From Aporrectodea caliginosa (taxonomy: Eukaryota > Annelida > Clitellata > Crassiclitellata > Lumbricidae), in contig JACEVL010000671.1 of NCBI GenBank assembly GCA_020284085.1, positions 1-64,000 of the forward strand: a stretch of 64,000 bases of DNA, in the 5' to 3' direction. The notes under the pieces were generated by a model, which was not told the DNA's origin, made no database searches, and worked only from the letters and a program-made list of their open reading frames with translations. Made by a program: the position numbers and the translations under genes. The number at the start of each line of letters is the position of its first letter. Position 1 is the stretch's first letter. Positions 30,228 to 62,199 of the stretch are shown here, one piece after another.

Positions 30228-30235
30228 TATAAAAG
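30228..30235 (+). promoter_or_regulatory. TATA box upstream of the duplicated signal-peptide exon
   Basis: ACATTATAAAAGACAG lies 59 bp before the ATG at 30287. The right-arm equivalent reads CATTAAAAAGACGG, so the TATA is altered there. Confidence 0.5.
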
Positions 30236-30286
30236 ACAGTCGCAATACAGCTTATAATATACGTTGCTTTGCCTGTCATACGGAAG

Positions 30287-30344
30287 ATGGCAAGCTTTTT
30301 TCTTACAACGTTGACTCTTCTGCTGATGATTTCAACTGCTATAG
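30287..30344 (+). CDS. Signal-peptide exon, partial duplicate of the Ly6-like gene
   Basis: Nineteen codons, MASFFLTTLTLLLMISTAI, plus one base, then a GTACGT donor at 30345. This is a textbook secretory signal ending in a phase-1 junction. It is nearly identical to exon 1 of the Ly6-like gene at 54473-54416 (changes at codons 3, 18 and 19). Homology stops near 30515, inside the intron, before anything like exon 2, so the Ly6 body was not copied here. It may be a dead stub or may splice to another exon downstream; the Cys-rich exon at 38312 has the matching phase. Confidence 0.55.
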
Positions 30345-30515
30345 GTACGTATAAGCTTCTTATAAGTCTGATGTACTTGTATAAGATCACATGTGGTATA
30401 AATACGTAAGTCTAACGCTCTGGGAAATCATTAGGCTTCATCGTGGTCAATTTTAAAGAACGTTCATGTAAATTGTGCCATAGGCTAATGCTGCTGCATT
30501 TTCTGAATTGTTGTA

Positions 30516-30612
30516 ACTTTTTGTTTTGTCAATGTGTGCATTGATGCAGAACCCATTTCATAGAACCGCATAACCCTTGTAACGGTACGGCGCCTTATAC
30601 ATGTAGATTGTG

Positions 30613-32184: not shown

Positions 32185-32652
32185 TCATGCCCTGATGCCA
32201 TCCAGCTTAGACGTAAGCATGATAGAAAGTCCTCCGCTGAAAAGGAAGGACTCGCAGATGTTCGAGAAGAGCGAATGACGACCAGAGGTGCCTAGGGTTG
32301 CTTGAATTTCTTGTGGACAAATCCGCCCTGTAGGCCGAATTCTTTTGACAATAGAGTCCGCGAAGGGAGCGCAGTTCAGTGACCCCCAGACGAGGCGATA
32401 GGCCGGATCCTTTGAGCGTCGGAAACGTCTTTCGAAGCAGCGGTTTGACGACGCAGTTGACAACAGTCAGCGGCCGAACGCGAGCCTTCTCACCCCGGAG
32501 CGGAAGCATCTTGTCAAGAAGATCGCCAGTGGTGACGTAGTATAACGGTCGACGAGTTGCGCAGTTGTTAAGGCATCAAGTTGAGAGAGAGAGGGGGAGA
32601 ATTTAAGAGAGCGTAACAAAAGGCACAGAGGTCGAGTTACTTCCACCCACAT
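32185..32652 (-). other. Possible decayed coding segment, unknown
   Basis: Three overlapping minus-strand frames of 61, 92 and 100 codons, higher in GC than the surroundings. One reads LPLRGEKARVRPLTVVNCVV then LRSLRGLYCQ. I recognise no family. It may be part of a mobile element of unknown type. Confidence 0.25.
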
Positions 32653-33141
32653 GCTATAGACATACTATAAGATGGTGTTGTGTCGTTGCGAGTTCAGACC
32701 GCTATCCAATTAACATAATTATCATCACACTCTGTATAATATATATATAAATATAGTGGGTGACCCAAATGCAAAAAGAGACAACGAGAAACAATTCAGA
32801 CAGATAAATGCGGCACGTCAGCATAGCCCATGTTTGGACTAGTTTACATTACACCGTCCAATCACCTACCCAGGCTTTCCTCGCAAGTGCTAGCCAAAAT
32901 TACTCTGGAATTTCAGCTGGATCGCTCGCGGTGCGAATTACACAGTGAAATACGACTGTCGCGTGAGGAAGTCGACGACAACGACGAAAGGGCATCATCA
33001 TCATGATAATGTCGTCGTCGTCGTCGAGATGGAACAATGACGGACGAAAGCCAGTCCTCACTGAGCCAGCAACAACGACACCACTCGAACGAGGTGTAAC
33101 GAGACACCAGCTATCTGGACCAATTAAGAGACAACCTCGAA

Positions 33142-34932: not shown

Positions 34933-35124
34933 ATGAGGAGAAGGCGGACTACCATGTAGGGCACCGCAAGAGCTGTAAATATTAGTTGCTAACTGTGCTG
35001 TTATTTTGTATTTTCACGGGAACAACGCGGTCACGGTCTGGAGGAAAACCGACGGAGGGAACGACATCATTCTCAGCCGGGAGGCGAACCAATGACTGGC
35101 TTTGTCCTCCCCCGGGAAGGGAGG

Positions 35125-35876
35125 TGTCGCGTGAGGAAGTCGACGACAACGACGAAAGGGCATCATCATCATGATAACGTCGTCGTCGTCGTCGAGATGG
35201 AACAATGACGGACGAAAGCCAGTCCTCACTGAGCCAGCAACAACGACACCACTCGAACGAGGTGTAACGAGACACCATTCTAGCGGCTCGGCAGACGAGC
35301 GGTGAAAGTGACACGAGTCATGGCATTCATAAGACGCCGGGGGGTTGCATGCCTCCGACGATGTAGCGGCTCGGCAGACGAGCGATGGAAGTGTCACGCG
35401 GCAAAGTGACACGCATTGACATTAATGAGGCGTGGGGAGGGCAGAACACGGGACGCTGAAAAGCGATACTTAAGGGAACATAGGACACAGAGGGAACACT
35501 CTTACTTTGACTTTGGACTTGGAGCAGAGGTTGCTGAGAGCTGGGCAGAGCGATCGAGCGACGCGACATCTGAGGAAGTAGGGTCCGTCAGATTCAGAGA
35601 CTGACGAAGGAACGATCTGGGGAGGAGGCCGTGCGAGGCAGATAGTGAGATAGTCGGTAGTAAGATAGAACTAGGATCGTTACTTAGAAGTTCCGTGAAG
35701 TTAACGTACGCCTTGTGATTTAATTAAATTCTTATCTTAATCAAACACAGTTCGTCGTGAGTCTTCTTTAGAAAGTTAGGCACGCTTTATCAATAGGTGC
35801 AATTAAAAGAACAAGTGAGAAGAAGGTCGACCTCGCCACTCGGTAAACACACGACAGGCGACCTTCAATCACGACA
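35125..35876 (+). repeat. 3' LTR of the Gmr1-like element
   Basis: TG...CA, 752 bp. It contains a CAT/GTC-rich block shared with the 5' remnant, two copies of TAGCGGCTCGGCAGACGAGCG (35280 and 35363), and a TACTTAAG box near 35467. The 3' edge rests on the ACGAC duplication. Confidence 0.7.
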
Positions 35877-36783: not shown

Positions 36784-38311
36784 ATGGTGTATGTGTATGT
36801 GTATGTGTGTAATATTCCTACAAGGTGTCGTCTCCTGTAATAAGAATTTTCTACATTTGGTTATTTCGACCAATGCCTCAGAATATTTCCTGGATCCTAT
36901 TTCCGGCATTGATCCGAATTGAACAGCAAATCTCTTTCTATAGCGTATGCCATGCGTCATATATTTGATCTACTTATAATCAGTCGAACTCTTAGCCATG
37001 CCAAAATATCTCCTTCTGAGTCACTTTCGACTACCCACATTGCCATAACTGCTTGGCTTCCTTGTGATCATATATACCGCATTTCACTTATACTTCATCA
37101 GTTACCCTAATTGGAAAACGCCCTGCGCCATAACCTTCGCAGCTGGACACAAGATCCTATGCAAGACAAATACAGCAGTGTACTCTACTATTCAGCATTT
37201 CACCATACTTTCCCTGGCCAATTCTGCCAGTTTATGAATGTCATTCAGGTCTACCTTAAGGCTTGTCAGTTTCAACATAGTATTTTATCCACCGTACCTG
37301 AATTGTAGTTTCCTTTATCGGATATTTCAGTTGGACTTCTTCAACAGATTATGATTTTCAAATATGGTCTTACTTAAGACCACTGAATGGTGCTTTGTGG
37401 AAGGATGATAGGCGTTATTGAAGTAATTGGATCTTAAATGCTACATATTATCTAATATAAACCTCACATACATTGAAAGATGCTATTGATTGACGCTGGA
37501 CCTCTAAGATGTTGTCTTCAAGGCCCTTTGAATTGAAACTGCACAGGAAAAATATACAACCTTTCCAAATGGATGGCCCTGGTGGACTGAGAGTTTTCAA
37601 TTTAAAATGCAATGCTCTTAGCCTCAGAGGCTGATGCAGATGCATGTTGCTCCGTATATGCTACAGTTGCTACAGTCTCATTCATTATTTCAAATAAGGG
37701 ATTATCGATTTGTCAACGACCTGTTAATAGTTTTGTATTCAATAGCTATCGTTCGCTATTACCTAAATCTTTTATCAAGTGTAGCCTAATATTCAATTAG
37801 GTCTATAGCGTGTGTGTATTTCCTTTTTAACGACTAGCTGTGTGGTAACAAAGACCATTAGCGTCGCCCTCCTCCTTCATCCAGGCTTGGGACTGGCACT
37901 GTCAGGCAGTTGCGAAGTTAGGTCTATTATACGGGGTCTGTTCCCAATGACATTGATGCCTGCTCTTCTTCCCCGTAAAACTGTTATTTCTAAACTACAA
38001 TCAGTGGTCTTAAGCAGTGGGACGAATAATAGTGCGTTGGCCAGTAGCAACCGCTTTCGAAATACAGACCGAGAATGATCCACGCCTGTGAGCGCCCCTT
38101 CCCCTCACGAATCGGACCATGGTTACTAATTCATTACTTGTTAAAGTCTGTTAATTAATTCTAGCCGAAAACCAACTTTTATCCTATTTATGAGCTGATT
38201 ACATTTAAATGACTATTCGTTTCATTAAACGTTTGATGCCTGAAAATTATTCAAAGTTTCTGAGCGAATCTGTTCTATGCAAACACTAATAAGTTTTTGT
38301 TGATGCTTTAG
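36784..38311. other. Duplicate-C sequence, no confirmed gene
   Basis: Sub-blocks X (36805-37020) and Y (37318-37680) recur in reverse order at 59845-60050 and 59410-59835. Short ORFs here are not conserved between the copies. Confidence 0.5.
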
Positions 38312-38526
38312 CTTTCACCAGCAAGAACAACAGCTCTTGTGAAATAATTTGCGAATGGGGTGGAGTACGATCCAACCATTTTATTTGCTCATGTCAGGGG
38401 ATATGCTGCGATTGCTACTGTAGCAATTTCGGAGCCACCTGCTTGCAAAAAACAGTCATCGCAAATGGAACGTCGAATATGATCATCCGAAACCATAAAC
38501 AGCGCTTGATTAAAACAGCGAACTAA
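38312..38526 (+). CDS. Cysteine-rich secreted-peptide exon, copy 1
   Basis: An acceptor (TTTTTGTTGATGCTTTAG, ending 38311) opens a frame of 70 codons to TAA at 38526. It starts in phase 1 (CT then TTC). Nine cysteines follow the spacing C-x3-C-x11-C-x-C-x3-CC-x-C-x-C-x6-C, including CCDCYC. The second copy at 60413 keeps every cysteine with no indel. Across 61 shared codons I count six silent and five replacement differences. That points to coding constraint rather than drift. No known disulfide family fits exactly. The signal-peptide exon was not found nearby; the phase would accept the exon ending at 30344. Ligand, peptide effector or matrix fragment are all possible. Confidence 0.55.
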
Positions 38527-40066
38527 TTATTGATCTCATTTATGGCATCCAGAATTGTGAACAATAAAATCAGGAAAACATTTTTAGACACGAAACATCA
38601 GACAATTAATTATCACATTGCAATAATTAGTGAAGTTGTAAATTAATGACGTCGTAATTGATAGTTTTTCCTTGATGCCTAAGTATATGAAAAGAGTGGA
38701 GTAGGCCTAGTAGCAATTGTAAACTCGCATAGCACCATTTCTAAAGAAACCCATTGGGACGCGCTTTCCCTAATCAAATGAAAGCATGGTCGAATAGGAT
38801 GGTTTTAAGCACTTCTGGATACGATGCAAACAGAGGCTGAGGAGTTCACGTCACATGTAATTAGCAACTTCTATTGCGCCGGTGTCTAATGCACAAGGCA
38901 TCAACCGATGGCGCATGTTAGACAACTGGTATCAGTTGTTAGACAACTGATACCAGGTGAATGGACCGACCACAGCAAAGGTGGAGGTGTGAATAGCCTA
39001 ATGGATCTAGTAGACTTGTCTGCTGCATGTACACAGACAAAATTTGCAGGTTTGTCTGTGTGTCATTTCATTTGTCTCGTTGCATGATCTCAAGAACGGA
39101 GCGCCATACTGCTCATAGCAAACGGTGATGCTTTATCGTATGACGGAGAAATGGTTCTTCTTATAATATTATTAGGCTATAAGAATTCCATTTAATCCTC
39201 ATAACCTCATTACCCTATAACCTTTATTTCCTCCATTGGCTGTAGGCTATTAGTGTCTCCTCGGACTCCCTACATTGCCTTTCGACCTGATTCACCCTTG
39301 AATTGGGCTTGCACAGCAATTTCGATTAAAACCGATCATCTTCTGATGATTTGAGTATAATGACAGCGGTGCTATTATTATAGTTCTCAGATTAAATTGT
39401 AGCCATTGTTGACGTCACCTGCTCAACGGTTTGATTGTATCTACTGAACACATCGAAATTATACAATGACGTCATAAACAACACAAACACATTAATAATT
39501 AAGTTCGCATTCGCAGATCATTTGAAAGAATTCAACATTGCTGCGGATGTATTGGTCTTTAACAAAGCTGATTATTTAACGTTGCCTTTCACATCTAATT
39601 CGCTAAGTTTTGTTACAGCAATACTTTCAAGCAGTTGTGACTTGATTACACCGTCTTTCTGCGAAGTTACACTAATATCATGCCTATTTTATCTATATCT
39701 ATCAGAGCATCTTTCAACCATAACCCGTTCCTGCTACTATCTTAATTGAAGTCGCTCAGCTACACCGTTCCTTGTCCACAAACTCTAATTTTTTGCTGTG
39801 TATTTTTCTTCGGTACAAACCGTGATGCTTCAACTGTCTTATCCCGATTGTTGCCTTTTATCGCTAGGCGAATATTCAAGACATTACATATAACTTGCGC
39901 TGATAGAACAGACACACAAACTGATAAACCGACAGCTTGAATTTTGGTGGAAAAAGTTTTATCGATTGGAGCACAATGTGAGAAGCATGGGAGATGTGTA
40001 TTGTTGGAGACTTTGGGCACAATGGGTGGTGAAATTGATATGTATGGCAGTCAAAGTTTGGGGTAT
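38527..40066. other. Duplicate-C sequence, conserved non-coding
   Basis: Aligned with 60601-63180. Two perfect TGACGTCA palindromes (39410-39417 and 39467-39474) are conserved with identical 57-bp spacing in the other copy. No ORF is conserved. Confidence 0.5.
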
Positions 40067-40512: not shown

Positions 40513-41478
40513 TATGAAGCTGTTACTATTGTAGCGGAAATTCTAGCTGACAGTAGGGTTGCGATGCATGTTGTTATAGTAGTCCAGTCATTAAACAACA
40601 ATTTTTCATGGAGGTTCGACAAAATTTTTACAAAAGGTTTCTTGGTGGGTTTCACCTCTTTGATATGTCTACGTTAAAAGAAAAAAAGTTTCCCAAAATC
40701 TGACATGGGCAACTATGTGAAAATGGGTCAAATCCAAGATGACCGCCGTCAAAATTCAGATCAGTCACCTGAAAATAAATAGTGGGGTACGGGAGCTGAA
40801 AAATATTTCACATACGGCAACCAATTATCCACTTTGGTTCCAGATAGTACATGGGTAGACGAGTCCAAAAAGCCAGGGACACAAATTTTAACGACCCTCT
40901 AGCGGCTGTGGCAGCCATTTTACAAAATGGCCGACTGAAATACATATTGTTCAATATCTCAGCTTCTCCTTCTCTTAGAATCGTGATTTTGGTGTCTAAA
41001 CATACATATTTAGGGGCAAGGATTCCATTGGAGCTAATTGCAAACACTTATCTGCACGAAATTGGCAGCCATTTTCCAAAATGGCCGACCGAAATTGAAC
41101 TTTGTCAATATCTCAGCTTCTAATTCACTTATAATCGTGATCTTGGTGTTCAAACGTACATATTTAGGGGCAAGGATTCCAATAGAGCTAATTACAAACA
41201 CTTATCTACACGAAATTGGCAGCCATTTTCCAAAATGGCCGACCGAAATTAAACTTTGTCAATATCTCAGCTTCTAATTCACTTATAATCGTGATCTTGG
41301 TGTCTAAGCGTACACATTTAGGGGCAAGGATTCCAATAAAAGTAATTGCAAACACCAATTCTGCTGTTTACCATGAATGTCTGCATGGCAACTTCACAGT
41401 AATGAAAATTAACAGGGTTTGCATGCTACAATATTGCTATACACTAAACCCATGAGCAGAACAACGTCTTTGTGAAGG

Positions 41479-43235: not shown

Positions 43236-44537
43236 TACACTCTACAGTGTACTGATCTGTGTCTGTGTAGAGGCCTATTTGACCATGAATGACGTAGACG
43301 ATGTTGTGTAACTCTGTGGGGAGTACTTTCTCTGAACACTGGTTCTCAAATGTGGACTGAAATATTGTTCAATATACATTTATGAGAACATTAATAACAT
43401 CCTGAATTGCTTATATAATACCAGAATTTGTTTTATTTCCACATGAGCATGAACAGAACACTAAGTTTCAGAAATAATATGATGAATGAATTAGTATGAA
43501 TCATACTATGCTTATAGTTGACCCGACATGAGCCTATCACGTTTGATTTTCAAACTAGGGGGAAATCCCCACCTCCCCCTAAATGACCGTGCTGGCTGAA
43601 TATCTCGTGTAGATAAGTGTTTACAATTAGTTCTATTGGAATCCTTGCCCATAAATATGTATGGTTAAACACCAAGATTACGATTATAAGTAAATTAGAA
43701 GCTGAGACATTGACAAAGTTTTATTTCGGTCGAACATTTTGGACAATGGCTGCAAATTTCGTGTAGATAAGTGTTTGTAATTAGCTCTATTGGAATCCTT
43801 GCCCCTAAATATGTATGTTTGGACACCAAGATCACGATTATAAGTGAATTAGAAGCTGAGATATTGACAAAGTTTAATTTCAGTCGGCCATTTTGTAAAA
43901 TGGCTGCCAATTTCGTGTAGATAAGTGTTTGTAATTAGCTCTATTGGAATCCTTGCCCCTGAATATGTATGTTTGGACACCAAGATCACGATTATAAGTG
44001 AATTAGAAGCTGAGATATTGACAAAGTTCAATTTCGGTCGGCCATTTTGGAAAATGGCTGCCAATTTCGTGCAGATAAGTGTTTGCAATTAGCTCCAATG
44101 GAATCCTTGCCCCTAAATATGTATGTTTAGACACCAAAATCACGATTCTAAGAGAAGGAGAAGCTGAGATATTGAACAATATGTATTTCAGTCGGCCATT
44201 TTGTAAAATGGCTGCCACAGCCGCTAGAGGGCCGTCAAAATTTGTGTCCCTGGCTTTTTGGACTCGCCTACCCATGTACTATCTGGAACCAAAGTGGATA
44301 ATTGGTTGCCGTATGTGAAATATTTTTCAGCTCCCGTACCCACTATTTATTTTCAGGTGACTGATCTGAATTTTGACGGCGGCCATCTTGGATTTGACCC
44401 ATTTTCACATAGTTGCCCATGTCAGATTTTGGGAAACTTTTTTTCTTTTAACGTAGACATATCAAAGAGGTGAAACCCATCGAGAAACCTTTTGTAAAAA
44501 TTTTGTTGAACCTCAACTATTTAATGACCGGACTATA

Positions 44538-48833: not shown

Positions 48834-48997
48834 TCATGCATCAATGGGACAATCGTCCGGTGGATATGAATTACATAGGTGCCCTTCACATGGTTTAGTG
48901 CATAATCTGGCGGTTTTCCCTTGCTTGACGCATTCATAGTATGGTACATCGCCATAATAGCAGCCTCTGGTCATGAAATCAACTTCTTCCGTACCAT
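48834..48997 (-). CDS. Ly6-like gene, exon 3 (C-terminal)
   Basis: Acceptor AG at 48999-48998. The exon starts with AT, completing a GAT codon with the last base of exon 2. Stop TGA at 48836-48834. Six cysteines, ending in the PCEGHLCN motif and DDCPIDA. An overlapping 62-codon ORF in another frame is a shadow. Confidence 0.72.
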
Positions 48998-51900
48998 CTA
49001 ATGAAAATGTAATATAGCAGGCAATTTAAAATTATTACCTGACTAATGCTATTTAAAATTACTGCTAAAATTTACACAAACAAGACGTGTTTAGAACAGT
49101 TGTCATAAGGCTGAATAGACGTATTATATTACTCTCCTTGTAGCGCAAAAGTTCGAATGCAATCTCAGTACAAGAAGTCTTTGTGTGCAAGGAACATGAC
49201 CACAGTTGCAACGTTGAAATATTATGTATGAATGCACGTGTAGGAATTTATGTACGTATGTGTTTGAATGTATGTTTGTTTGTATGTACTATGAATGCAT
49301 TTATGTTAGGTTATTGGGGGTACAAAATATTATGATTTCATAAACGCTTCATTCTCAAACTTTCAACCAATTTACATCAAGGGATGCAGTTAGTCTATCG
49401 TTACTGCGGGATCGCTGGATTACTATTCGATATTAAATTATTTCCAATGATCGACCATTCGTATACATTAGGGAATGCAAACCCTGGTTACCCGAACCGG
49501 GTAACCCGGGTTACCCAGCTTTTTTCAAACCTGAAACCCGGGTTTGAACGCGCTTGAAACCGTAACTTTAACGGTCCTTCACGGTGTGAAACTCACAAAT
49601 GCAGAGTAATGGAAATATAACGATAATAGTGGTTGATAACGGGTTTACGTAATACAACTTCTAACTACTTATTTATCGGCTCATTCCATATCTTTATTGG
49701 TGACTTCGTATGAGTATGGCTTTCCATTTCACACGACCAGTGACTAATGTTGAGTGTTATGACACGTCGGCGTCGTAGCTTCGAATTCGTAAATAATAGC
49801 AGTAGGCCTAAACTGTTTTTATTTGAATTTAGTGATTTCAGACACAAATCCAAACAATGTCTAAATCTGCAAATGTAAAGGGTGGTGTTTGGGATCATTT
49901 CGTTCACGATTCTGAGGGCCAGACGGCTCAATGTCAGTTATGTAACTCGCAGCAAAAATTGCCATCGGTGCAACAAGAAATATGCATAGGCTATTCATCT
50001 CTGGTCCAAGCATAAGATAAACCTGCTGAAACACAAGGACGTTCGTGACCCTTGTCGTTCTGACGAAGTCAATGACGGTAGGCCTCTTAGTCCAAGCACA
50101 ATCACTGGCAGCGATATGTCTCCAAAGCAGTATCTACTTTAGTAAGTTCTGGCTCTGCCAAATAGGGTTGCAGAATAACGATTACTAAATTATCTTCTGA
50201 AAGCAAATGGGCAGGCACTGGAATGGCCTAAAGCTGAGATGTAGACGACTAAGCTGTCATTTGACAATTATTTTTAAAGGCCTATGCAATGATTCTTTCA
50301 GACAGAACGCTCCGTGAATTTTTTCAAGCTGCTAAAAATTATTTTATTTACTTACATGTTTAATAAGAAATTATTTAGTTAATTTAATTTAATTTCAGCG
50401 TTTTCAGTGTTGATTGGTATTCAAGATGCTATAAAATTAGAGGTTCAGGTGTTGGCCTTCGGGACCCTTGCAATGTCTTGCATAACTGTTCTGGAATTGT
50501 TCAGTTCCGGAACATTTTTTATTGAAAAACACTGCTTATTTAAAAAAAATCGCGATTATCCTAAAGTTTTCTTTTTATGCAAAATTCTTGACTGTTGTAG
50601 AACGTTGGACTTGTAGCTGCATACGACGACGTTGTTCTTACGCAAGAAATAGTGCAGTAATAATATTTATCATGTAAAATTTTTTAACCCGTCCAAACCC
50701 GGGTAAGTTACCCGGGTTTTCACGGCGGTCAGACTCGAAACCCGGGTTTCGAAAAAAGACCCAGGGTTTGCATTCCCTAGTATACATGCTATGTGCAATG
50801 TGGGCGCTGTAAAAAATTTTTTAAAGTGATGTCTGGTAACAACGGACGCGGCTAATAGCGTTGCCCAGCATTAAAGGCTGGGCTACACGCGTACGGCACT
50901 ACTTGCAGCCAAAATAACTTTAGGCCTACTTCCTTCTTCAGACTGTCCGTCGGCCAGCGACAACACAGCCTCATGGCAATGCGTTTACTAACTCAGTCCG
51001 TACTATAAATGACTAACAATGAAGGGCAGTACAGAAAGAATAACCGGAAACTGTTTTTGCCATGTCTCAGTTCGAAGAAAGTGGATTAACTTTGCGGTGG
51101 CATGCAGATACTAGTTCCGGTCCAGTCTAAGTGCAATTCACCGTCAGATTTGTGCTGGGCTGAAGACCGCCTAGTTCTCGGATCAGTCTGATGTGATAGA
51201 GTGAATTCTAAGTACCACGATGGGTCAGTAGTTTGAAAGGGTGCAACAGCAAAGTCTGAGGATGTAGCTGAGGTCAGAAGGGCGCTCAGTAGCCTATGTT
51301 TGAAGCGTAGCTCCGTCAAGGTAACAGGAATGGCCTACACTAGCTGATCACTAGCGCAAAGAATTCTAATTGCAGCCATGAATTTCTATTGTATGTAGAC
51401 CCTATCAGGACAAATAATATAAATCATTTTTAACATCTCACAAGAGGTTTTTGTTCATTCATTCATTCATTTATAAATTAATATAGCGCCCCTTCAAGAG
51501 GACTACTCGGATGCGCTCCCGACTCCAGCACGGCCAAAAAGTACAGTTTTGAGTCTAGTAAAGAAAGCTCCAGTAAGAGTCCCAGGGAGCAGGCGTATCT
51601 CCTGAGGAGCCCATTCCAGACCACTGGGCCCAACACGAAAAAGGCTGGATTCTGCATGGTTGCAGTTCGTGCAAATGGTACTAAGGGCACCCTCTTCTCT
51701 GTAGAGCGGCGGGGGCGGCGACCTTGAATACCGAGGGGCAACAAAGCTCCCGCAGGTAGTCTGGGGCAAGACCCAGCTGACATCGTCGCACCAAGGCAGC
51801 AATTCTGTACTCAATGCGCTGCCGGGTAGAGAGCCAGTTGTAAAGTCTCCAGCATATAGCTGGAGACATGACCAAATTTCGGGATAAGACGCGCTGCAGA

Positions 51901-54473
51901 GTGCAGGACTCGATCCAGGTACACTGGTCAATTAGATGGGAGGCCAGAGTACAGTGACGAGCAGTAGTCTTTACATTACATGTACAGGGTGGGCCAAAAA
52001 AGGAACCCTCTACGCATTTTTGCTAATATTTCTGCCAAAAGTGAGAATTTTTAAATCACGTTTTACATGCTTAAAGGTAATTCATATCTACGTATATTGG
52101 CCAAATTGCATCAAAATATTTCACACAGAACAAAAGTTATATCACTTTTACTGAGTCCACCCACTGTTTTTGATGGTTCAAAAACGTAACACAGCAAAAA
52201 ACAACAAAAAAAGAATTTACTAAGTCACTTCTCAAATAAGTGTTATCAAACAAACTTGTTATTGCCAGATACATATTATTTAGAAAAGAAACAGGGTACC
52301 AGCGTAGCTGCACGTCACTGTGACGTCATTTAGCAAGAAGACGATCAAGTTGGTAAATAAAGAATTTTTCAGATTAATAATTTTTTATTGATAAAATGAA
52401 ATTGAAATGTTTCTAAAATATCAAAATGGGCAAGGTGTCAATGACAGACAAAATTCGTATGCAGACACTTCATGAGCAGGGTCTTTGAGTTAAAGCACTA
52501 ATCGCCGTTTGCCCTGATAAACAGTGGAAGCTGAGTAGGCCTAACGTTAAAAAATATGCCGCTGCATTGATGAAAGGGGATCGACTCTGGAACGTCGTAA
52601 AGGCAGCGGAAGGCCGAAATCTGTCCGCACTCCAACAAATGGATAAACACGTACGGGTAGCTATGCAGAAGAAATACCACAATCTGCGACCAAAGCCAAA
52701 AACGATAAGAGAATTGAAGGTCGCATTGAAGTTGACGTGGGAAGATTAACCTCTGGAGCCCATCAACAAAGACATCAAAACTTATCAAAATACTCAGAAC
52801 ATGTTTGGATACTGGTGAAGGACACATTGAACACAAGTTGTGAAACAATAATCAAGTTTGTTTGATAACAATTATTGGAGAAGTGACTTAGTAAAATCGT
52901 TTTTAGTTGCCTTTTGTTGCGTTTCGTTTTTGAACTCTCAAAAAACAGTGGGTGGACTCACTAAAAGTGATATAACTTTTGTTCTGTTTGAAAAGTTATG
53001 GTGAAATTTGGTCACTATACGTAGATATGAATTATCTTTAAGCCTGTTAAACGTGATTTAAAAATTCTTACTTTTGGCGGAAATATTAGCAAAAATGCGT
53101 AGGGGGTTCCTTTTTTTGGCCCACCCTGTACATAGCATTGCATTTTCTAATTTGTAAGAAGATGGTAGCCTAACACCAAAGCTGCAATCCGAATACTCAA
53201 AAATTGTTACTGTTATTTGTATTATAACAATTATTATATTTGTTATTATTATTATAATTATCATCATCGTCATCATCGTCGTCGTCGTCATCATCATCAT
53301 AATCGCCATCGTCATTGTCATCATCATCGTCGTCGTCGTCATCATCATCGCCATCGTCATCGTCATCATAATCATCGCCATCGTCATCGTCATCATAATC
53401 ATCGCCATCGTCATCGTCATCATAATCATCGCCATCGTCATCGTCATCATCATCATCGCCATCGTCATCGTCATCATAATCATCGCCATCGTCATCGTCA
53501 TCATCATCATCGCCATCGTCATCGTCATCATAATCATCGCCATCGTCATCGTCATCATAATCATCGCCATCGTCATCGTCATCATAATCATCGCCATCGT
53601 CATCGTCATCATAATCATCGCCATCGTCATCGTCATCATAATCATCGCCATCGTCATCGTCATCATAATCATCGCCATCGTCATCATCATCATAATCGCC
53701 ATCGTCATTGTCATCATCATCATCATCGTCGTCGTCGTCGTCATCATCATCGCCATCGTCATTGTCATCATAATCATCGCCATCGTCATCGTCATCATCA
53801 TCATGGCGCCATCATCATCGTTACCATTCTTTTTGTTATTTTTATCATTAATTATATCACAGGGATCATATCCCAATAGTATTGTAGTATTTTAATGTCT
53901 TATGTTTCGATAGTAGGTGTTACTACCGTTGTATACTTTGTAATAAGTATACACTGCGCAAAATTTTCCGTCTGCGCATGTTCGGTGGTACGATGTTCTT
54001 TGGCAGCACGCTGTACTATCAGGATATCCATTCCTACGACGGTATCCATTGCAGCTAAAGCACTGGACAACTTCAGAAATAACTGCGAAGAAACAAGAAT
54101 AATGGTTATAATTGCTTTCTCGATTTGTATGCGCGTAAGCATTTAGTTCGGATGCATAGTTATTGCAAAAGGCACCACGCCAGCTGCGCTTGAATAAAAA
54201 TCAAAAATCAATCAAAACTCTTTTATTGAAGCCAAATCAAAGTTACAACAATTAAGAAAATGCAGCAGCATTATGGAACAGTTTACATGAACGTTCTTTA
54301 TAATAATAAATTGACCATGAGAAGCCTAATGATTTCCCCTAACGTTAGACTTACGTATAAACCGCATGTGATCTCATACAAGTACATCAGACTTATTAGA
54401 AGCTTTTACGTATACCTGCAACAGTTGAAATCATCAGCAGAAGAGTCAACGTTGTAAGAAAAAAGCCTGCCAT
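48834..54473 (-). CDS. Secreted Ly6/uPAR-like three-finger protein, three exons
   Basis: Exons 54473-54416, 54082-53927 and 48997-48834 join in frame to 125 codons plus TGA. Exon 1 is a signal peptide (MAGFFLTTLTLLLMISTVA). Exon 2 opens after TTGTTTCTTCGCAG and carries QCFSCNG, a CC pair, then TCADGKFCAVYTYYK, the first half of a three-finger fold. Exon 3 opens after CATTTTCATTAG and gives MTRGCYYG, YYECVKQG and LCTKPCEGHLCN, the C-terminal Ly6 signature. All splice sites are GT-AG and both introns are phase 1, as in known Ly6 genes. There are twelve cysteines, against ten in a standard Ly6 domain. No hydrophobic GPI tail follows, so it is probably secreted. Intron 1 is 333 bp; intron 2 is 4929 bp and packed with transposons. 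Extra exons in intron 2 cannot be excluded. The ligand is unknown; a receptor modulator is the usual role of such proteins. Confidence 0.75.
49469..50779 (+). mobile_element. hAT element remnant in intron 2, 1311 bp
   Basis: Inverted ends TAGGGAATGCAAACCCTGG and CCAGGGTTTGCATTCCCTA carry exact 8-bp copies GTATACAT (49461-49468 and 50780-50787). CCCGGGTAACC-type subterminal repeats occur at both ends. The interior has a BED-finger fragment and a partial MITE related to that at 15580 (about 50320-50534). Confidence 0.92.
49857..50055 (+). pseudogene. BED zinc-finger start of a hAT transposase
   Basis: ATG at 49857, then KSANVKGGVWDHFVHDSEGQ and TAQCQLCN. After a frame change comes NLLKHKDVRD, supplying the finger's histidine. 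A WxxF...CxxC...H pattern at the N-terminus is typical of hAT transposases. The rest of the enzyme is gone. Confidence 0.8.
50788..51477. other. Intron 2 sequence, nothing recognised
   Basis: No coding or repeat signal beyond a short TTCATTCA run at 51455-51470. The minus ORF 51086-51319 is unsupported. Confidence 0.45.
51478..51931 (-). pseudogene. LINE reverse transcriptase C-terminus and 3' UTR
   Basis: The minus strand reads WLSTRQRIEYRIAALVRRCQ, then GLAPDYLRELCCP, and in the next frame FVLGPVVWNGLL. The 3' UTR is AGTCGGGAGCGCATCCGAG...AGGGGCGCTATATTAA followed by (TGAA)n. That UTR resembles the tail of the SINE at 23848. Confidence 0.8.
51985..53128 (+). mobile_element. Tc1/mariner element with about 280-bp inverted repeats
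   Basis: The ends CAGGGTGGGCCAAAAA and TTTTTGGCCCACCCTG lie between TA dinucleotides (51983-51984 and 53129-53130). Inverted arms extend to about 52262 and back from 52852 (ending TCAAACAAACTTG). The interior is a deleted transposase gene. Confidence 0.92.
52426..52848 (+). pseudogene. Mariner-type transposase, internally deleted
   Basis: It begins GKVSMTDKIRMQTLHEQGL and then a stop, as at the N-terminal helix-turn-helix. It jumps to the C-terminal block KKYHNLRPKPKTIRELKVAL, KLTWED, stop, then INKDIKTYQN. The catalytic DDE/D core is missing. Confidence 0.75.
53230..53815. repeat. 27-bp minisatellite (CATCGCCATCGTCATCGTCATCATAAT-like)
   Basis: About 15 units of nine triplets, bordered by irregular CAT/CGT triplets. 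The unit length is a multiple of three, so long His/Arg and Met/Thr ORFs arise on the two strands; they are artefacts. It lies in intron 2, close to exon 2. Confidence 0.93.
53927..54082 (-). CDS. Ly6-like gene, exon 2
   Basis: Acceptor TTCGCAG ending 54083; donor GTAGTA from 53926. It starts with TT (completing GTT with exon 1's G) and ends with a lone G. Six cysteines in 52 codons. The frame could also run on to a TAA at 53894, giving a truncated product. Confidence 0.75.
54416..54473 (-). CDS. Ly6-like gene, exon 1 (signal peptide)
   Basis: ATG at 54473-54471, nineteen codons plus G, donor GTATAC at 54415. Eleven of the nineteen residues are hydrophobic. The near-identical exon at 30287 supports the call. 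The upstream TATA-like box is degraded (TTAAAAAG on the minus strand near 54562). Confidence 0.75.
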
Positions 54474-55239
54474 TTTCGGTTAGTCTTCCTCTTGCGAACT
54501 CGCTTCTGTATGACAGGCAAAGCAACGTATAATAATTATTATAAGCTGTATTGCGACCGTCTTTTTAATGTATCGTCGAAACTGTGTCATAATAAATGCA
54601 TGCAGGTGTTTATGTATGCACGCAAGTATTCACGTACGTAGTACGCGTGTAGGCCTGTTGGTTAGTTTGTATGCATGCACGGATGTTCGTATGCATGTAC
54701 GCGATGAGTCAGTAAAAAACGTCACCCTACAACGTGGCGTAAGGTCTAATGGTGGAACGGATGCACGCTATCGGGTGACCGGCCGGTCCACGAGACCCGG
54801 CGACCCTATTGACTGATTAGAAGATGCTCCGTAGTTAAAGATTTTATTCGCAGAGCACAATTTATTGTACCTTTAGACGATCTTCTTTTATTATATCGAT
54901 GTCATCACTTCCAACACGATGCCACTTTACATGTTTAAGATCTGAGATTACATGTACTGTACAGGAACTGAGCCTTTGGCTCAGCTAGGCTACTGATGCA
55001 GTAAACAATACCTTGTTTGGTAAGGTATTCGTTTAGGTTACTCACTTACTCAAATAACTTACAGATTGGCTGTCTATCTGTCTGTCTGTCTCTTGCTCTC
55101 TAAGAATCTACCTGTTTCTTCTTTTATCTCTCTGCCTCCTCTACATCAGCGCTCTGTGATGCCTCATTAGCAGAGGGATGCGTTTCTTGCCGGAGAGCCA
55201 GAAGCGTGCCATCGCATACGGGCACGGCCAGAAATAAGA

Positions 55240-56765
55240 AAGCCTGGAATGGATCCGGACAACATCAAGCACTACCGCCCTAACTCTAACCTGACGTTTC
55301 TTTTTAAGGTTATTGAGAAGACAGTGGTAAGGCAGTTGCAGAATATTCGGAATCGAGCAACCTCATGCCGAAGATATAATCCGGTTTCAGTAAAGGCCAT
55401 TCGACAGAAACCGTTCTTCTGAGGTTCACCTGTGGCAAAGCTCGAGGGTACGTACCATACGTATTCTATTTTTTGAAAAGTACGTACGTATTTTAACGTA
55501 CCCTATTTTAGGGTACGTAAACAATACAAAAATAATACAAAAATACGATAACCACGTCATTGCTCATCAGATTATACGTAGGCTATGGGTTGCCGGGTAA
55601 ACCAGAAATAAAATGTTCGTGTATGATAGACCTACGTACCATACGCGTATTCTATTTTTTGAAAGGTACGTACGTATTTTAACGTATTCTATTTTAGGGT
55701 ACGCGTACCCTCGAGCTCTGACCTGTGGCGTTTGCGATGCCATCGGCTCTGAACACAACACGCTGCTCGCACTCCTGCGTATGAGCGCGGCTTTTGACAC
55801 TGGGAATCACAGCATCCTGCAAACAAGACCACGCACCTGGTTTGGAGTTGTCGGACGGGTCTTTGAGTGGATGTGTTTTTCGTTAGAGGGTGAATGCAAA
55901 AAACGGGCACGACGATATTAGTATTATTATTATGTTTATCTGTAATGTGTAAACACTCATGAATTCTAGATAAAGGAGTAGGCCTACAAGACTTGATTGA
56001 CATGCAGACTGACGCAGCGAGAAGCCACGCCTGTCATAGGGTCGAAGGGAGAGAAGGCAGATAGCAGGGGCACGGCAAAATGAAAGGAATAGGAGAGCGC
56101 GGTTGGGGCGAGAAGGAAATTTGACATGCGGCGGTGGTAGAAAAGACAGAGGAAAGCAGGGAAAGGAACTCTCTGAGAGGAGAATTCGGAGGGAAGATTG
56201 GAGAGTGAGCTTGTTCGCGAGAAAGGGCTACAGCGGTCAGGATAAGAGGATATTGTAATTGAGGACCTCTCACAAAATCCTTGGGCTCGACGTCAAGAGA
56301 AACGTTATGTTATGTTAAACAACCGTTCTTTGTAAATAAGCCGTTAATAGATTGTATAATAGGATTTCATATACTGAATTTGCAAGATACGATCACCCAC
56401 GTACAACTTAGCTACTAAACCCCAGAAAATTAGTCGCTGTCGTATTCATAGCAGCAACGTTCAGGGACTGACAGATAAGCAATTGAAGCGGCATTCCATA
56501 ACTGGAAGATACAACACGTTGTACGTGACCTGGGAGTGTTTCTGGATGAAGACCTGTCTAAGGAGGACCATGTCAATTCCCTCTGCAGGTTTTGCTTGTA
56601 TCATATACGTCAGATTTGAGTCATACTGGGGATAATTATCATTTGCCACCCACTGTGACTCTTGTCCACTCCTTTATGCTGGACTACTCAACGGTGTCCT
56701 TGCGGGTCTGCCAAGGTTCCAGGAACGACATCTTCAGACCTTCCTCAAATGCACCTCCCGAGTCT
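55240..56765 (+). pseudogene. Old CR1/L2-like LINE, right-arm copy
   Basis: RKPGMDPDNIKHYRPNSNLT, FLFKVIEKTVVRQL, then SGFSKGHSTETVLLRFTCG across a frame change. After the MITE at 55436 come VCDAIGSEHNTLLALLRMSA and AFDTGNHSIL, then GVVGRVFEWM. The thumb follows at 56515-56765: VVRDLGVFLDEDLSKEDHVN and TLVHSFML. The YADD region is replaced by unassigned sequence (about 55930-56440) shared with the left arm. Confidence 0.8.
55436..55720. mobile_element. 285-bp hAT MITE
   Basis: Ends CAAAGCTCGAGGGTACG and CGTACCCTCGAGCTCTG, flanked by exact 8-bp copies ACCTGTGG (55428-55435 and 55721-55728). The left arm of duplicate B carries the uninterrupted site (minus strand, about 26752-26776). The interior is rich in TACGTACGTA and CCCTATTTTAGGG palindromes. 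Confidence 0.95.
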
Positions 56766-56929
56766 AGATACACTGTCAAAATTCTCGTATATTTCGATCC
56801 ACGAGGACAGGGTTACATTCAAGATCATACTCATGGGACGAACATCGATGGTAATAATAATAAGTAGGCCTATGTATACGTGTCGGAAGGCAAAAACTGC
56901 AGATATATGCAAATAAGTATGTGTAGGTA

Positions 56930-57012
56930 TGTGTGTATGTATGTATGTATGTATGTATGTATGTATGTATGTATGTATGTATGTATGCATGCATGCATGC
57001 ATTATTATTATT
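56930..57012. repeat. (TATG)n and (TGCA)n microsatellite
   Basis: A TATG run then GCATGCATGCAT, tail of the LINE fragment to the right. Confidence 0.9.
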
Positions 57013-57330
57013 ATTAAATAAATTTTGTAACGCGCACAAGGTCACACCGAAATGTGAATCTGAGGCGCGAATAGTCAGCCGCCAGGTGAAGTTGCACTTA
57101 GATTTCTAAATCCTTGAAAGCCAAGGAGAAATAGTGAGTTTTGAGCCGCTTTTTGAAGGAAGGAAGTGAAGTTGAGCTACGAAGAGAAAGTGGTAGTCGA
57201 TTCCATTCCTTTGGAGCAGAGGCGTGGAATGCACGAGAGCCCATAACTGTTCTGCAAAGTGGCTCGGCTAGAAGACCTGTACTGGATGATCGCAGACAAC
57301 GAGGAGGGATGTAAGGAGTTAGTATGCATA
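57013..57330 (-). pseudogene. LINE C-terminus
   Basis: The minus strand reads SRAFHASAPKEWNRLPLSLR, SSTSLPSFKKRLKTHYFSLA, then a stop and a 3' UTR with CCTTGTGCGCGTTACAAAAT. Absent from the left arm. Confidence 0.82.
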
Positions 57331-58114
57331 CATGTGCATGAATGCACATGTATGCATGCATGTACATGTATGTAGACCTACGTATGTACTATGTAGGTAT
57401 ATACGTATATGTATGTAGGCATGCAATTTATGTAATAGTCTATTTATGCATGACTGTAGTCTGTATGTGTGCATGTGTATTATATAAGTCGGTTTGTATT
57501 CCCAAAGAACATTATAAGATGCAGTAAATCACCTTAAAATGTTTATGAAAACTCCAAGTACGTTATCAGAAATACATGTAAACATGAACGGAAAGTTGGC
57601 AATGCGAAAACAAGAACTTAATATTTTAATCTTTGATCATTAAAAAAAGCATTTGCAATAAGACAAATGATTTTGTTTATGAAAACAAGAAATAACGACT
57701 GGAAACACAGCTGTTGCAAGATTATTCAATGTGTGTTCAGTCAATAATCGCTTAATTCTTTGTCCTGATGCAACTTCAGAAGAATATTACCACGATAGAA
57801 ATGCGTGAATGAGTAAGAAAGTATGCACGCACAACTTTGATGTGAGCACATCTTAGCTCATCGACTCCCTACTAGGGCGATTTAGATGAGCGTCGTAAGC
57901 TTCCAAAGAGTGATGCGGTCTGCATGAATTTAGAGGGCATCTAGTAAAATTCTTTATTAAAAATATGACGTCGGACATTTAATTATTTTGCGTGTAAGTT
58001 CTGTTAACGTAGTCGATTGAATGATAATAGACTGCATGCAATTCAAAGTTAAGAGCAGCAGCAACATTTAATAATATCATCTCCGTCATCATAGATGGCT
58101 TGCTTCTATCTCTA
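57331..58114. other. Duplicate-B sequence, no gene
   Basis: A GTATGTA-rich stretch to about 57480, then sequence shared with 24340-24970. No conserved ORF. Confidence 0.5.
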
Positions 58115-58755
58115 TAGCGTTGCCGTTAAGAGACTCTGTGAATCGTCCGGGTCTTGGGTTTGCCTCTTGCCTGTCACACTGTGCGTAGACTGAAGTTCAG
58201 CGGGAGACGGTCTGTTTGCTTCCTCCATATCTATGTATTTATGAACCGTTCGACCGGTCTCTTCCTGCAGTTTCTCCTGAGCTCTTACACCAAGGTTCAG
58301 AAAGTCCGTGAGTTGCAGTCCTGTCTTCAAAACATCGGCAGTTTCCTTCTTTCGATCATCTTCAGGACAGTGGTTGCCAAATTAAAACAGTAGCCTACCT
58401 CTGAGGTAGCCTACTCCTAATATCGCAATTGCACTACCACATCTTGGTCTAATGGAATTGCAAAGCTCAATCATGCATTGACAGTATTGCGATATAATTT
58501 ATGGAACAAGAGGGACCAATATGATTTCGGCTCCTTCTAATAAAGCAATGAATAACAGAGGTTTTGTTTCCTGAGACGTTTGGATGTAGGCCTACCCTAT
58601 TGATTTTGGGCTGCTGATCACGAAAATGACCTTGACATTTGCCTGTCACGTAGAGTTTTTTCGCAATAGGTTATTTTTGTAATTTTCTTTCACATTTTCA
58701 CTCTACTGAAATAGAAATGTGTTAAAAAGTAGGCCTAAGCTGTTTTGTATATTCC

Positions 58756-58775
58756 AGGCATGCCTGGGCATGCAC
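58756..58775. promoter_or_regulatory. p53-family-like response element
   Basis: AGGCATGCCT fits RRRCWWGYYY exactly and is followed without spacer by GGGCATGCAC (one mismatch). A weaker pair lies at 58818-58837. By motif only. Confidence 0.3.
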
Positions 58776-58875
58776 TCAGAGCAGGTTACACAACATGCAA
58801 TGTAAATGTTAAGGCTTAGGTATGCCTGTGCATGCCCGGATAGGCTTAGTTACGATGGATGTTGGCAGGACAGGC

Positions 58876-58884
58876 TATAAAAGG
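58876..58884 (+). promoter_or_regulatory. TATA box, probable core promoter
   Basis: GGCTATAAAAGGAGC is a near-ideal TATA element, about 1.5 kb upstream of the Cys-rich exon at 60413 on the same strand. The transcript start would lie near 58907. The first exon was not identified. Confidence 0.45.
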
Positions 58885-60412
58885 AGCTTGCATACACAGA
58901 CGCGATAATACCAGTTGATATGTATGTTGATGCGCAACGCGCATAAATAGCATGGTTTTTGCTGTACGATAAATACGATAAATAATATAATGTGGGTTCA
59001 CCATTACGGTAATATTGCATAAATAAATCTTGCATACCATTTTTTTAAAATGAAACACAAATTCTGAGAATACCACAGTATTCAGCATGAAAAATTATAG
59101 AAACTATAGAAAACAGCAGAAGTTTCTTCAGAAACAAAAAAGTAAAAATTTGTTGTCCAGTGTAATTACCCATAGGGCTTCCCTCCCACAAAATCCGAGC
59201 TTATCTCGACTAATGCGACTCCTTCGATGCAGCCTGAAGAAGTGCATGTTTTGAGTGACATGGTACTGTCTAATTATGAGCATTTCCAGTTATTCTACTG
59301 TAAAGCATCTACCGGTCTGCATGATACATGTGCAACTCCTCAGCCTACAAGTCCAAATATTCAGTGAAATCACAACAGTTATCGGGTATCAACCCTAGGC
59401 CTACCTGATATTTTAATTGGACTTCTTCAATAGATTATGATTTTCAAATATGGTCTTACTTAAAAAGACCATTGAATGGTGCCTTGTGGAAGGACGATAG
59501 GCGTTATTGAAGTAATTGGATTTTAAATGCTACACTTATCTAATATAATATGTTAAACCTCACATACATTAAAATTATTGATTGACGCTGGACCTGTAAG
59601 ATGTTGTCTGCAAGGTGAATGCCCATTGAATTGAAACTGGACATGAATAATATACAACCTTTCCAACACGAGTTTTCTCTTTTTAAAATGACATGCCCTG
59701 ATGCAGATGTATTGGACTGGGAGTTATAATCATTTTCAATATGATTTAATATGTCGTTCGCTATTTAGGCCTACACTGGCTGATGCAGATAACATGTTGC
59801 TCCGTATAGGCTACTGTTGCTACAGTTTCATTCATTATTGTAAGTTATTATCGTAATATTCTACAAAGTATGTTCTCCTGTAATAAGAATTTGTACATTT
59901 GGCTATTTCAAGCAATGCCTCAAAATATTTCCCGGATCCTATTTCCGGCATTAAATCTTGTAATTGCAGCAGCTAATATCTTTCTATAGCGTATTCCATG
60001 AGCCATACATTTGGTCTACTTTAATCAATCGAACTCTTAGATGCCAAATATTCTTCTTCCCCGTGCATGTTTTTTCTAAACATTACAATCAGTGGCAAGT
60101 AATTCTTACGCAGTGAGATGAATAATTTGTGCGTTGGCCAGTTATCGCTTTCGAAATACAGACAGAGAATGATCTACGCCTGTGAGCGCCCCTTCCCCCT
60201 CACGAATCGGACCATGGTTACTAATTCAGTACTTGTTAAATTGTGTTAAGTTTAATTAATTCTAGCCAAAATCAACTTTTATCGTATTTGTGAGCTGATT
60301 ACATTTAAATGACTTTTCGTTTCATTAAAAGTTTGATGCCTGAAAATTATTTAAAGCTTGTGAACGAATCTGTTCTACGCAAACAGTAATAAGGTTTTTG
60401 TTGATGCTTTAG

Positions 60413-60600
60413 CTTTCACTAGCAAGAACAACAGCTCTTGTGAAATAGTTTGCGAATGGGGCGGAGTGCGTTCGAACCATTTTAATTGCTCATGTCAGAG
60501 GATATGCTGCGATTGCTACTGTAGCAATTTCGGCGCCACCTGCTTGCAAAAAACAGTCATCGCAAATTCAACGTCGAATACGATCATCCGAAACCATTAA
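60413..60600 (+). CDS. Cysteine-rich secreted-peptide exon, copy 2
   Basis: Acceptor TTTTGTTGATGCTTTAG ends at 60412. The frame runs 61 codons to TAA at 60600, nine codons shorter than copy 1 because an AAA codon became TAA. All nine cysteines and the CCDCYC core are unchanged. Replacements are Ile/Val, Ile/Asn, Gly/Arg, Gly/Ser and Met/Thr, and six third-position changes are silent. A TATA box lies about 1.5 kb upstream (58876). No signal-peptide exon was found between them, so it may use a small exon I could not see, or be inactive. Confidence 0.55.
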
Positions 60601-61252
60601 CAGCGCTTGACAAAAACGACGAAATAATTGACCTAAGGCATCCAGAATTGTAAACAATAAAATCAGGAAAGTTTGTTAAGACAAGAAACATCAGACAATT
60701 ATCACATTGCAATAAATAGTGAAATTGTAAATTAATGACGTCGTAATTTATACTTTCTCGTTGATGCCTAAGTATAAGAAAAGAGTGGAGTAGCAGCAAT
60801 CGTAAATATGTATAGCACCATTTCTAAAGAAACCTATTGGACGCTCTTTACCTAATCAAATGAAAGCATGGTCGAACAGGATGGTTTGTAAGCACTTCTG
60901 GAAATAATGCAAAGAGAGGCCTATAGGAGCTTCTGTCACATGTTAGGCAACTTATTCCAGGTGGATGGACCGACCACAGCAAAGGTGGAGGTGCGAATAA
61001 TGGATTTGGTAGTAAAGTGTACATGCGGAAAACTTGTCTGCTGCATGTACACAGACAAAATTCGTAGGTTTGTCTGTGTATCATTTCATTTGTCTAATCG
61101 CATTATCGCAAGAACGGAGCGCCATACTGCTAAGAGCAAACGGTGATGCTTTATCGTATGACGGAGACGCAATGAATCCATAATAGGCTATAAGAAATCC
61201 ATTTAATCCTCATAACATCATTACCCTATACCCTTATTTAATAATAATAAGC

Positions 61253-61253
61253 C

Positions 61254-61302
<49 letters not shown>

Positions 61303-61530
61303 TTATAATAATATCTTTTCTTTAATTTAGCGCCTGACAAACGCACTGCGCTGTACATTTACATGTTATGCAATTGAAACAATCTTAACTAGTTAACTAC
61401 TAACAAAGAACAGACAGCCTGTAATACGACGCTAATAGCAGCCTACAAAGCATATCCGCCCAACGGGGCTCGAACTCGGTACCTCTCGCACTCTTCGCCA
61501 GATGTTATCCAACGCGCCACCGGACCCCCC
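61253..61530 (-). mobile_element. tRNA-derived SINE, copy 2 with a different tail
   Basis: The minus strand head GGTCCGGTGGCGCGTTGG, B box GAGTTCGAGCCCC and body match the SINE at 8897. From about 61380 the sequence switches to GTACAGCGCAGTGCGTTTGT and GGCGCTAAATTAAAG, then an ATT tail. The site in duplicate-C copy 1 (about 39230) lacks it. Confidence 0.85.
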
Positions 61531-62199
61531 AACGCTATAGGCTGTAGGCTTTCGTGTCTCCTCGGACTCCCTACATTGCCTTGCGACCGGATTCACCCTT
61601 GAATTTGGCTTGCACAGCAATTTCGCTTATTACCGATCATCTTCTGATGATTTGAGTATAATTATAATTACAGCGGTGCTATTATTATAGTTCTCAGATT
61701 AAATTGTAGCCATTGTTGACGTCACCTGCTCAACGGTTTGATTGTATCTGCTGAACACATCGAAATTATGCAATGACGTCATAAACAACACAAACACATT
61801 AATAATTAAGTTCGCATTCGCAGCTCATTTGAAAGAATTCAACTTTGCTGCTGATGTATTGGTTTTTAACATAGCTGATTAATTAGCGTTGCCTTTCACA
61901 TTAAATTCACAAAGATTTGCTTGTAGCAATACTTTCGAGCAGTTGTGACATACTTTCAACGCCTTCGTTCGAAGTTACACGAATATCGATCATGCCAGCA
62001 ACCCTTTAAACTCTAGTGTTTAGATTTTCTCAGGCAGTTATAATATCACCGGAATGGCCGAATCAAGTGAAACTACACAGGTACATGGAGGACAATTGTT
62101 TGCCTTTATCACGCTAACATCGCTACAGTTTAAACTTTGTGAAGTTATAGTATTCCCGTGGTTTTACTCAGTACATTACACAGCAAAGGGCCAACAGAG

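Follow-up and report, generated by a model that had tools for sequence, protein, structure and literature searches.

Evidence for an intact three-exon Ly6/uPAR gene and a probably diversifying twelve-cysteine family in the annelid Aporrectodea caliginosa

The first 64,000 nucleotides (nt) of contig JACEVL010000671.1 of Aporrectodea caliginosa (assembly GCA_020284085.1; forward strand), referred to here as the window, contain between positions 48,834 and 54,473 of the minus strand what we consider, with good confidence, to be an intact three-exon gene encoding a secreted single-domain Ly6/uPAR (LU) protein, which belongs to a lineage-specific and partly tandem family of some dozen or more copies with twelve cysteines whose mature domain is diversifying. 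That the gene is real is supported independently and decisively by paralogs in the same genome, in which the same exons, intron phases, splice contexts and twelve cysteines recur. In the closest pair of copies, the exons encoding the mature domain have accumulated roughly twice the divergence of the introns by the sequence estimates below, and the best reading of this pattern is that the family has been diversifying at least recently.

Gene structure and the LU cysteine frame

The gene consists of three minus-strand exons (Table 1) that total 378 nt, equivalent to 125 residues and a stop codon. The introns start and end with GTATAC..GCAG (intron 1) and GTAGTA..TTAG (intron 2), and both junctions are in phase 1. 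The three exons, GT-AG introns, phase-1 junctions and 126 codons proposed in an earlier reading of the DNA alone (hereafter the sequence-only reading) are all found in the sequence.

The coordinates given in that reading for exons 1 and 3 and for the exon 2 donor stand, whereas the acceptor of exon 2 probably lies 12 nt further downstream, at 54070 rather than 54082, since the upstream AG is absent from all nine paralogs compared (L017-L023, L025 and L028), all of which have the AAG 12 nt downstream, and since L022 carries an in-frame stop codon between the two acceptor positions, leaving the second site alone usable there. In the window, the acceptor region reads TTCTTCGCAG, TTATTTCTGAAG and TTGTCCAG in succession, and the upstream CAG is, judged against the paralogs, a gain in the window gene. 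The family form would thus be 121 residues long, and the 125-residue form is possible for the window copy too, both AGs being there. The two forms share the same cysteines, which in the 125-residue product are located at positions 27, 30, 45, 46, 55, 61, 84, 94, 104, 108, 113 and 121.

These include the ten plesiotypic LU cysteines, so that the domain opens with CxxC and closes with CN, and the same frame is seen in the family. In the three-finger fold of LU proteins, these ten are paired 1-5, 2-3, 4-6, 7-8 and 9-10. In the 125-residue form the LU domain extends from C27 to C113-N, with 88 residues from C1 to the N (the rule being 60-90), and the second intron falls between C5 and C6. This layout corresponds to that of the canonical LU gene, summarised in PMC6600238 as a signal exon followed by two further exons, with phase-1 introns of which the second is located at the tip of loop 2.

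Chance pairing of the exons was rejected, as none of 150 windows simulated with a Markov model held an exon-2-like and an exon-3-like piece on one strand within 10 kb (single pieces averaged 0.34 and 0.06 per window, respectively), with a search pattern that had been composed after the gene was seen. The real window has exactly one LU piece of each kind, correctly paired. Exon 1 by itself proves little because the window contains 41 signal-like candidates with an ATG and a phase-1 donor, including exon 1 and its orphan copy; what counts is its conservation in the paralogs. It encodes a hydrophobic stretch, a putative signal peptide.

A twelve-cysteine family in the same genome

The genome searched comprises 1.098 Gb in 4544 contigs, of which the 3.06-Mb contig C670 begins with the window. 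At E <= 10 the genome yields at least 16 matches to exon 3, spread over ten contigs, and at least nine of these have E < 0.01. Outside the window, 14 of the 15 matches were taken with about 9.9 kb of surrounding sequence and, together with the window, give 15 loci; L012, a 5'-truncated exon-3 copy, is known from a short locus only. Searches for exon 2 located an in-phase copy at 12 loci out of 15 (not in L024, L027 or L030) and those for the putative signal-peptide exon succeeded at seven, this exon being near-identical in six of the 14 paralog stretches. Ten gene models could be assembled, of which seven include exon 1, and all ten have an open frame and exactly 12 cysteines, whilst the two remaining exon-2 loci, L026 and L029, encode six plus six.

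The six cysteines of exon 3 are present at 14 of the 15 loci, L027 being without C9, and at all 15 the last cysteine is followed by 1-25 residues with no hydrophobic stretch (no search was made for additional 3' exons). The twelve cysteines and the missing glycosylphosphatidylinositol (GPI) tail, both read previously from the window gene, are therefore borne out and, because they hold across paralogs, are traits of the family rather than quirks of a single gene.

A tree of 12 mature domains contains no fork at the support threshold; the pairings it gives are the window gene with L017 (86/93), L018 with L019 (88/90) and L026 with L029 (87/84, on long branches).

Such genes escape notice because no exon reaches 60 codons and the domain is divided between exons. 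Open reading frame calling misses the window gene, as the sequence-only reading had stated, and a six-frame scan of the genome with the Pfam Ly6 model PF00021 gave three weak matches, whilst the 16 places of the twelve-cysteine family all went unreported.

Two minor observations concern other copies. At L009/L023 (C185), a paralog reads through the usual stop codon into what is 3' untranslated region in its kin, producing the 25-residue tail after the last cysteine. Weak exon-2-like matches (E 0.67-7.9) at L035 (C333), L037 (C844) and L040 (C683) are possibly other Ly6 genes.

Divergence of the mature domain

The nearest copy, L017, lies in tandem about 26 kb away (C670:80-88 kb) and in the same orientation. 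By Jukes-Cantor divergence, exon 1 differs between the two by 0.017, whereas exon 2 reaches 0.153 and exon 3 reaches 0.155; the corresponding values are 0.056 for intron 1, 0.076 for intron 2, 0.064 for the upstream flank and 0.059 for the downstream flank, the introns and flanks being represented by their alignable sequence only. Differing sites number 40 of 287 in exons 2 and 3 and 325 of 5047 in noncoding DNA (Fisher p 1.0e-5), and no noncoding window of equal length reached the exon counts (0 of 3933 and 0 of 4179), with the exon forming the peak within single unbroken alignments. When the immediate flanks were force-aligned, they diverged by 0.078, compared with 0.214 for exon 2 and 0.140 for exon 3. 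For the mature part, the Nei-Gojobori method gives a nonsynonymous divergence (dN) of 0.218 and a synonymous divergence (dS) of 0.095; on rounded counts, nonsynonymous sites exceed noncoding DNA (p 6.2e-10), whilst synonymous sites are equivalent to it (p 0.43). Indels are multiples of three in six of six cases in exons and in 14 of 64 in noncoding DNA.

Nine further pairs were compared, and in eight of these exons 2 and 3 are more divergent than the noncoding DNA that could be aligned (p 7e-7 to 2e-18), although the compared pairs share branches and the yardstick is biased towards conserved noncoding DNA. With immediate flanks force-aligned in nine pairs, the closest included, both exons remain above the flanks in eight.

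Several results weigh against diversifying selection. In the closest pair, the direct comparison of nonsynonymous with synonymous sites is only suggestive (p 0.077), and an exon excess is missing from L018-L019, a very recent pair. Force alignment reduces the excess in older pairs to about 1.05-2.2-fold, and places exon 2 of L018-L022 below its flanks, such that this control weakens the claim of an exon excess in older pairs. The dN/dS ratio of the mature part is 0.88-1.30, i.e. near 1, in five older pairs, and dS in the older pairs (0.28-0.66) itself lies above alignable noncoding divergence (0.12-0.19). Given the small excess, the ratios around 1 and the raised dS of the older pairs, the case for diversifying selection rests mainly on the closest pair, and gene conversion or exon exchange could underlie part of the older pattern.

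There is an alternative to diversifying selection, in which introns and flanks are restrained by gene conversion between copies or by regulatory constraint, or exons are exchanged between copies, giving exons and flanks separate histories; we judge it unlikely, at roughly one chance in a handful. Noncoding DNA is indeed conserved between several copies wherever it can be aligned, comparisons of alignable sequence include nothing else, and the dS and dN/dS values of the older pairs, together with the loss of much of their exon excess on force alignment, fit this account. The closest pair speaks against it, as its synonymous sites behave like noncoding DNA and only its nonsynonymous sites rise above it, the exon is still the peak in unbroken alignments, the force-aligned flanks stay at 0.078 and exon 1 is lowest of all.

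Relation to known domains

The assignment of the window gene to the Ly6/three-finger group, made in the sequence-only reading with UPAR_LY6 models as the proposed check on the 125-residue product, holds across the paralog family; the window protein alone stays under every Pfam cut-off. The 125-residue protein scores 13.5 bits (E 0.1) and its mature part 14.6 bits (E 0.047) against the Pfam model UPAR_LY6, which has a cut-off of 24.8, and a search of the PDB with the single window sequence gave only chance matches to the proteasome. Shuffles with the cysteines pinned matched UPAR_LY6 in none of nine cases, and one of the nine reached a better E-value (0.0032) with an unrelated model, which is why the weak E-values of the single protein prove little alone. 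Three of the nine members scanned (L018, L021 and L028) match no LU-type Pfam model, which also counts against the assignment.

A profile of nine family members (alignment A3), by contrast with the single sequence, matches LYPD6/LYPD6B structures across the domain (6gbi, E 1.3e-4; 6ib6, 3.0e-4; 6zso, 6.9e-3). The paralog L020 exceeds the UPAR_LY6 cut-off (26.6 versus 24.8 bits), the sole one of the nine to do so, and six of the nine match some LU-type model, be it LYPD6, snake toxin-like, quiver, CD59 or UPAR_LY6.

Searches of 5.8 billion proteins found no relative with the 125-residue form at E <= 10 (4 candidates) or with the nine-member alignment at E <= 1 (327 candidates), although distant kin may be missed because shared five-residue words are needed. 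In viral contigs, 2 and 11 stretches matched the patterns and none coded for a relative, and among the titles and abstract openings of the open-licence papers listed there was no GPI-less invertebrate LU family with twelve cysteines, although a conotoxin paper (PMC12236594) does use the expression '12 cysteines'. The divergent, secreted and new lineage anticipated from the window gene is in keeping with the empty protein searches, and is refined here to a multi-copy family with fast coding exons.

These matches could also be taken to indicate an ordinary, conserved-type Ly6 regulator, i.e. a channel or receptor modulator resembling Lynx, LYPD6 or quiver that happens to be without a GPI signal. 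LYPD6 is the closest solved structure, and paralogs give weak matches to QVR and the LYPD6 family. These matches, however, fall under the curated cut-offs (15.9 of 27.3 bits for QVR in one paralog; 18.9 of 31.5 bits for UPAR_LY6_2, the LYPD6 family, in the best paralog), the many diverging copies and the extra cysteine pair speak against an ordinary regulator, and the protein searches, within their limits, point to no one-to-one ortholog outside the lineage, leaving this a rather improbable explanation.

It is more improbable still, to the point of being a long shot, that this is a decaying or relaxed multicopy family with unconstrained exons and a window gene that is a pseudogene or near to one: the family does shed pieces (the orphan exon 1 in the window, the truncated L012, L027 without C9) and dN/dS near 1 in older pairs would fit relaxation, yet relaxation is unable to lift exons above the intron rate as in the closest pair, frames are open and all 12 cysteines kept in all ten models, exon indels preserve the frame and no part is more conserved than exon 1, and pseudogene decay was rejected on the exon rate and the frame-keeping indels.

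Proposed protein and comparison with known three-finger systems

In the intact, diversifying gene favoured here, exon 1 would supply the conserved signal peptide, and exons 2 and 3, meeting in finger 2, would together encode the LU domain with its ten standard cysteines. A LYPD6 cysteine taken as C3 is matched in the alignment by the second residue of the CC in finger 1, and the extra pair should therefore be the first cysteine of the CC and the C-terminal one. A sixth disulfide, expected between Cys45 and Cys121 of the 125-residue form, probably joins that first cysteine to the cysteine seven residues past the final CN, which would pin the short C-terminal tail to finger 1. The protein is probably secreted and, as it has no GPI signal, would be released. 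Since the mature domain outruns introns and flanks in the closest pair whilst the disulfide frame and signal peptide are unchanged, the most likely task of the fingers is to bind an extracellular partner that itself keeps changing, for example a receptor of a gamete, a mate or prey, or else a microbe.

Three-finger proteins outside vertebrates and arthropods are described as practically uncharacterised (PMC11595613, in summary). What appears to be new here is a multi-copy family that has no GPI signal and carries an additional pair of cysteines on a known LU scaffold.

The LU domain is aligned with LYPD6 and LYPD6B by the family profile, with the second cysteine of the CC falling on the LYPD6 cysteine, but the extra disulfide of LYPD6 is reported to stabilise loop 3 (PMC6600238, in outline), whereas here the extra cysteines are in the CC of finger 1 and after the CN. 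Drosophila quiver/sleepless and other insect Ly6 proteins share the single LU domain, and one paralog aligns with QVR over positions 1-86 of 86; unlike these, the window family has no GPI tail, has 12 cysteines and scores below the QVR cut-off. Starfish Lystar/LyAr proteins show that invertebrate LU proteins can occur in number, and the summary account of Asterias rubens lists 48 LU proteins, of which nine are without a GPI site and two are probably secreted (PMC11595613); in that set the GPI site is missing only in those nine, whereas the window family as such is GPI-less.

Snake three-finger toxins are likewise encoded by multi-copy, three-exon LU genes with no membrane-anchor region, and their history, as outlined in PMC10421932, includes duplication, loss of the anchor, orphan exons and diversifying selection. 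They differ in that the window family has CxxxC rather than adjacent cysteines before the final loop, and the Toxin_TOLIP cut-off of 21.2 bits is not reached (the two paralogs that match score 17.5 and 17.3, and the window protein has no match). The salamander courtship pheromone plethodontid modulating factor (PMF) is also a duplicated and fast-evolving three-finger family with three coding exons, described in brief as hypervariable and under positive selection (PMC4029566, PMC8904931), but has eight cysteines and rearranged disulfides, in contrast to the 12 cysteines of the window family with the canonical ten in place.

A partial signature of snake toxins and salamander pheromones is thus seen in a distant GPI-less family, with many copies, a conserved signal peptide, an orphan exon and, in recent copies, exons that diverge more than introns. 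We propose only tentatively, rating it somewhat below an even chance, that a snake-toxin-like path was taken independently in an invertebrate, from an anchorless LU gene with a new sixth disulfide to a dispersed family whose mature exons outrun the introns behind a frozen signal peptide. If true, this would be an independent replicate of the conversion of a receptor-like scaffold to a fast-evolving secreted effector, and the family would represent an arsenal of secreted proteins serving mating, immunity or capture, with no counterpart found in the protein collection searched. The role may be any of these three.

Introns, transposons and orphan exon

Intron 1 of the window gene is short (345 nt, compared with 1587-5648 nt in the six measurable paralogs), whereas intron 2 has been expanded to 4929 nt, compared with 1952 in L017, through a repeat array and the insertion of two transposons. 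The superfamily names given to the two elements in Table 1 are those to which we presume they belong. Both insertions probably postdate the duplication that separated the window gene from L017, because the corresponding sites in L017 are unoccupied.

A 5' block around exon 1 recurs as piecewise inverted copies elsewhere in the window, where an orphan exon 1 and an intron-1 remnant are found (Table 1); no exon 2 or 3 of this orphan copy was found within the window. Orphan exons are known in vertebrate Ly6 clusters, as outlined in PMC10421932. Just downstream of the orphan intron-1 remnant sits a Gypsy-type element (32957-35277) with 153-bp terminal repeats that are 99% identical and an open pol frame (33100-34932), and a public assembly contains a 92% identical protein (P0001).

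Table 1. Coordinates of the window gene and of associated features in the window
Feature	Position	Strand	Description
Exon 1	54473-54416	-	58 nt; ATG, coding for a putative signal peptide (MAGFFLTTLTLLLMISTVA), phase-1 donor; near-identical exon in paralogs
Exon 2, start in the sequence-only reading	54082-53927	-	156 nt
Exon 2, family-supported start	53927..54070	-	C1, C2, CC, C4, C5 half of LU domain; phase-1 donor
Interval between CAG and AAG acceptors	54071..54082	-	12 nt; optional four-residue extension VISE; intronic in paralogs
Exon 3	48997-48834	-	164 nt; C6-C10N half, 12th cysteine, stop; no GPI tail
Intron 1	54071..54415	-	345 nt
Intron 2	48998..53926	-	4929 nt
Non-autonomous element, presumably Tc/mariner-like, intron 2	51980..53133		Long terminal inverted repeats; empty site in L017
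Element, presumably hAT-like, intron 2	49464..50784		24-nt terminal inverted repeats; empty site in L017
27-bp tandem array, intron 2	53260..53821		Downstream of exon 2
5' block: exon 1 and part of intron 1	54239..58378		Piecewise inverted copies within 23699-30520
Orphan exon 1 (MASFFLTTLTLLLMISTAI)	30287..30344	+	Intact ATG and donor
Intron-1 remnant of orphan copy	32296..32600	+	94% to L017 intron 1

Surroundings of the gene

Segmental duplications surround the gene as a mosaic of inverted and direct copies with about 70-95% identity (22054-30520, 36809-39679 and 54239-62147). Satellite arrays with units of 151-154 bp are located at 5528-7116, 40611-41355 and 43593-44514 in an inverted arrangement, within which the stretches 43771-44514 and 40611-41355 are inverted copies with 97% identity. 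The window as a whole has an observed/expected CpG ratio of 0.94, and the palindrome TAGGCCTA has 23 sites in it (46 when both strands are counted).

The minus strand further carries a 994-codon open frame (13286-10302) with the Pfam domains Mab-21 nucleotidyltransferase (1.1e-7) and Mab-21_C (6.9e-15), corresponding to a MAB21-type gene whose long C-terminal part has no clear domain. Outside the window, mitochondrial COX1 fits the invertebrate code (TGA = Trp, AGA = Ser, ATA = Met, AAA = Lys), as judged by residues regarded as invariant. This code argues against a vertebrate source, snakes included, and against echinoderms (an echinoderm origin was rejected on this ground), cnidarians, sponges and flatworms, and a spiralian appears likely. 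COX1 matches of identical score occur at C70:3435453-3436790 (L041) and in the small last contig C4544 (L042), pointing to either a nuclear copy of recent date or a join made in assembly.

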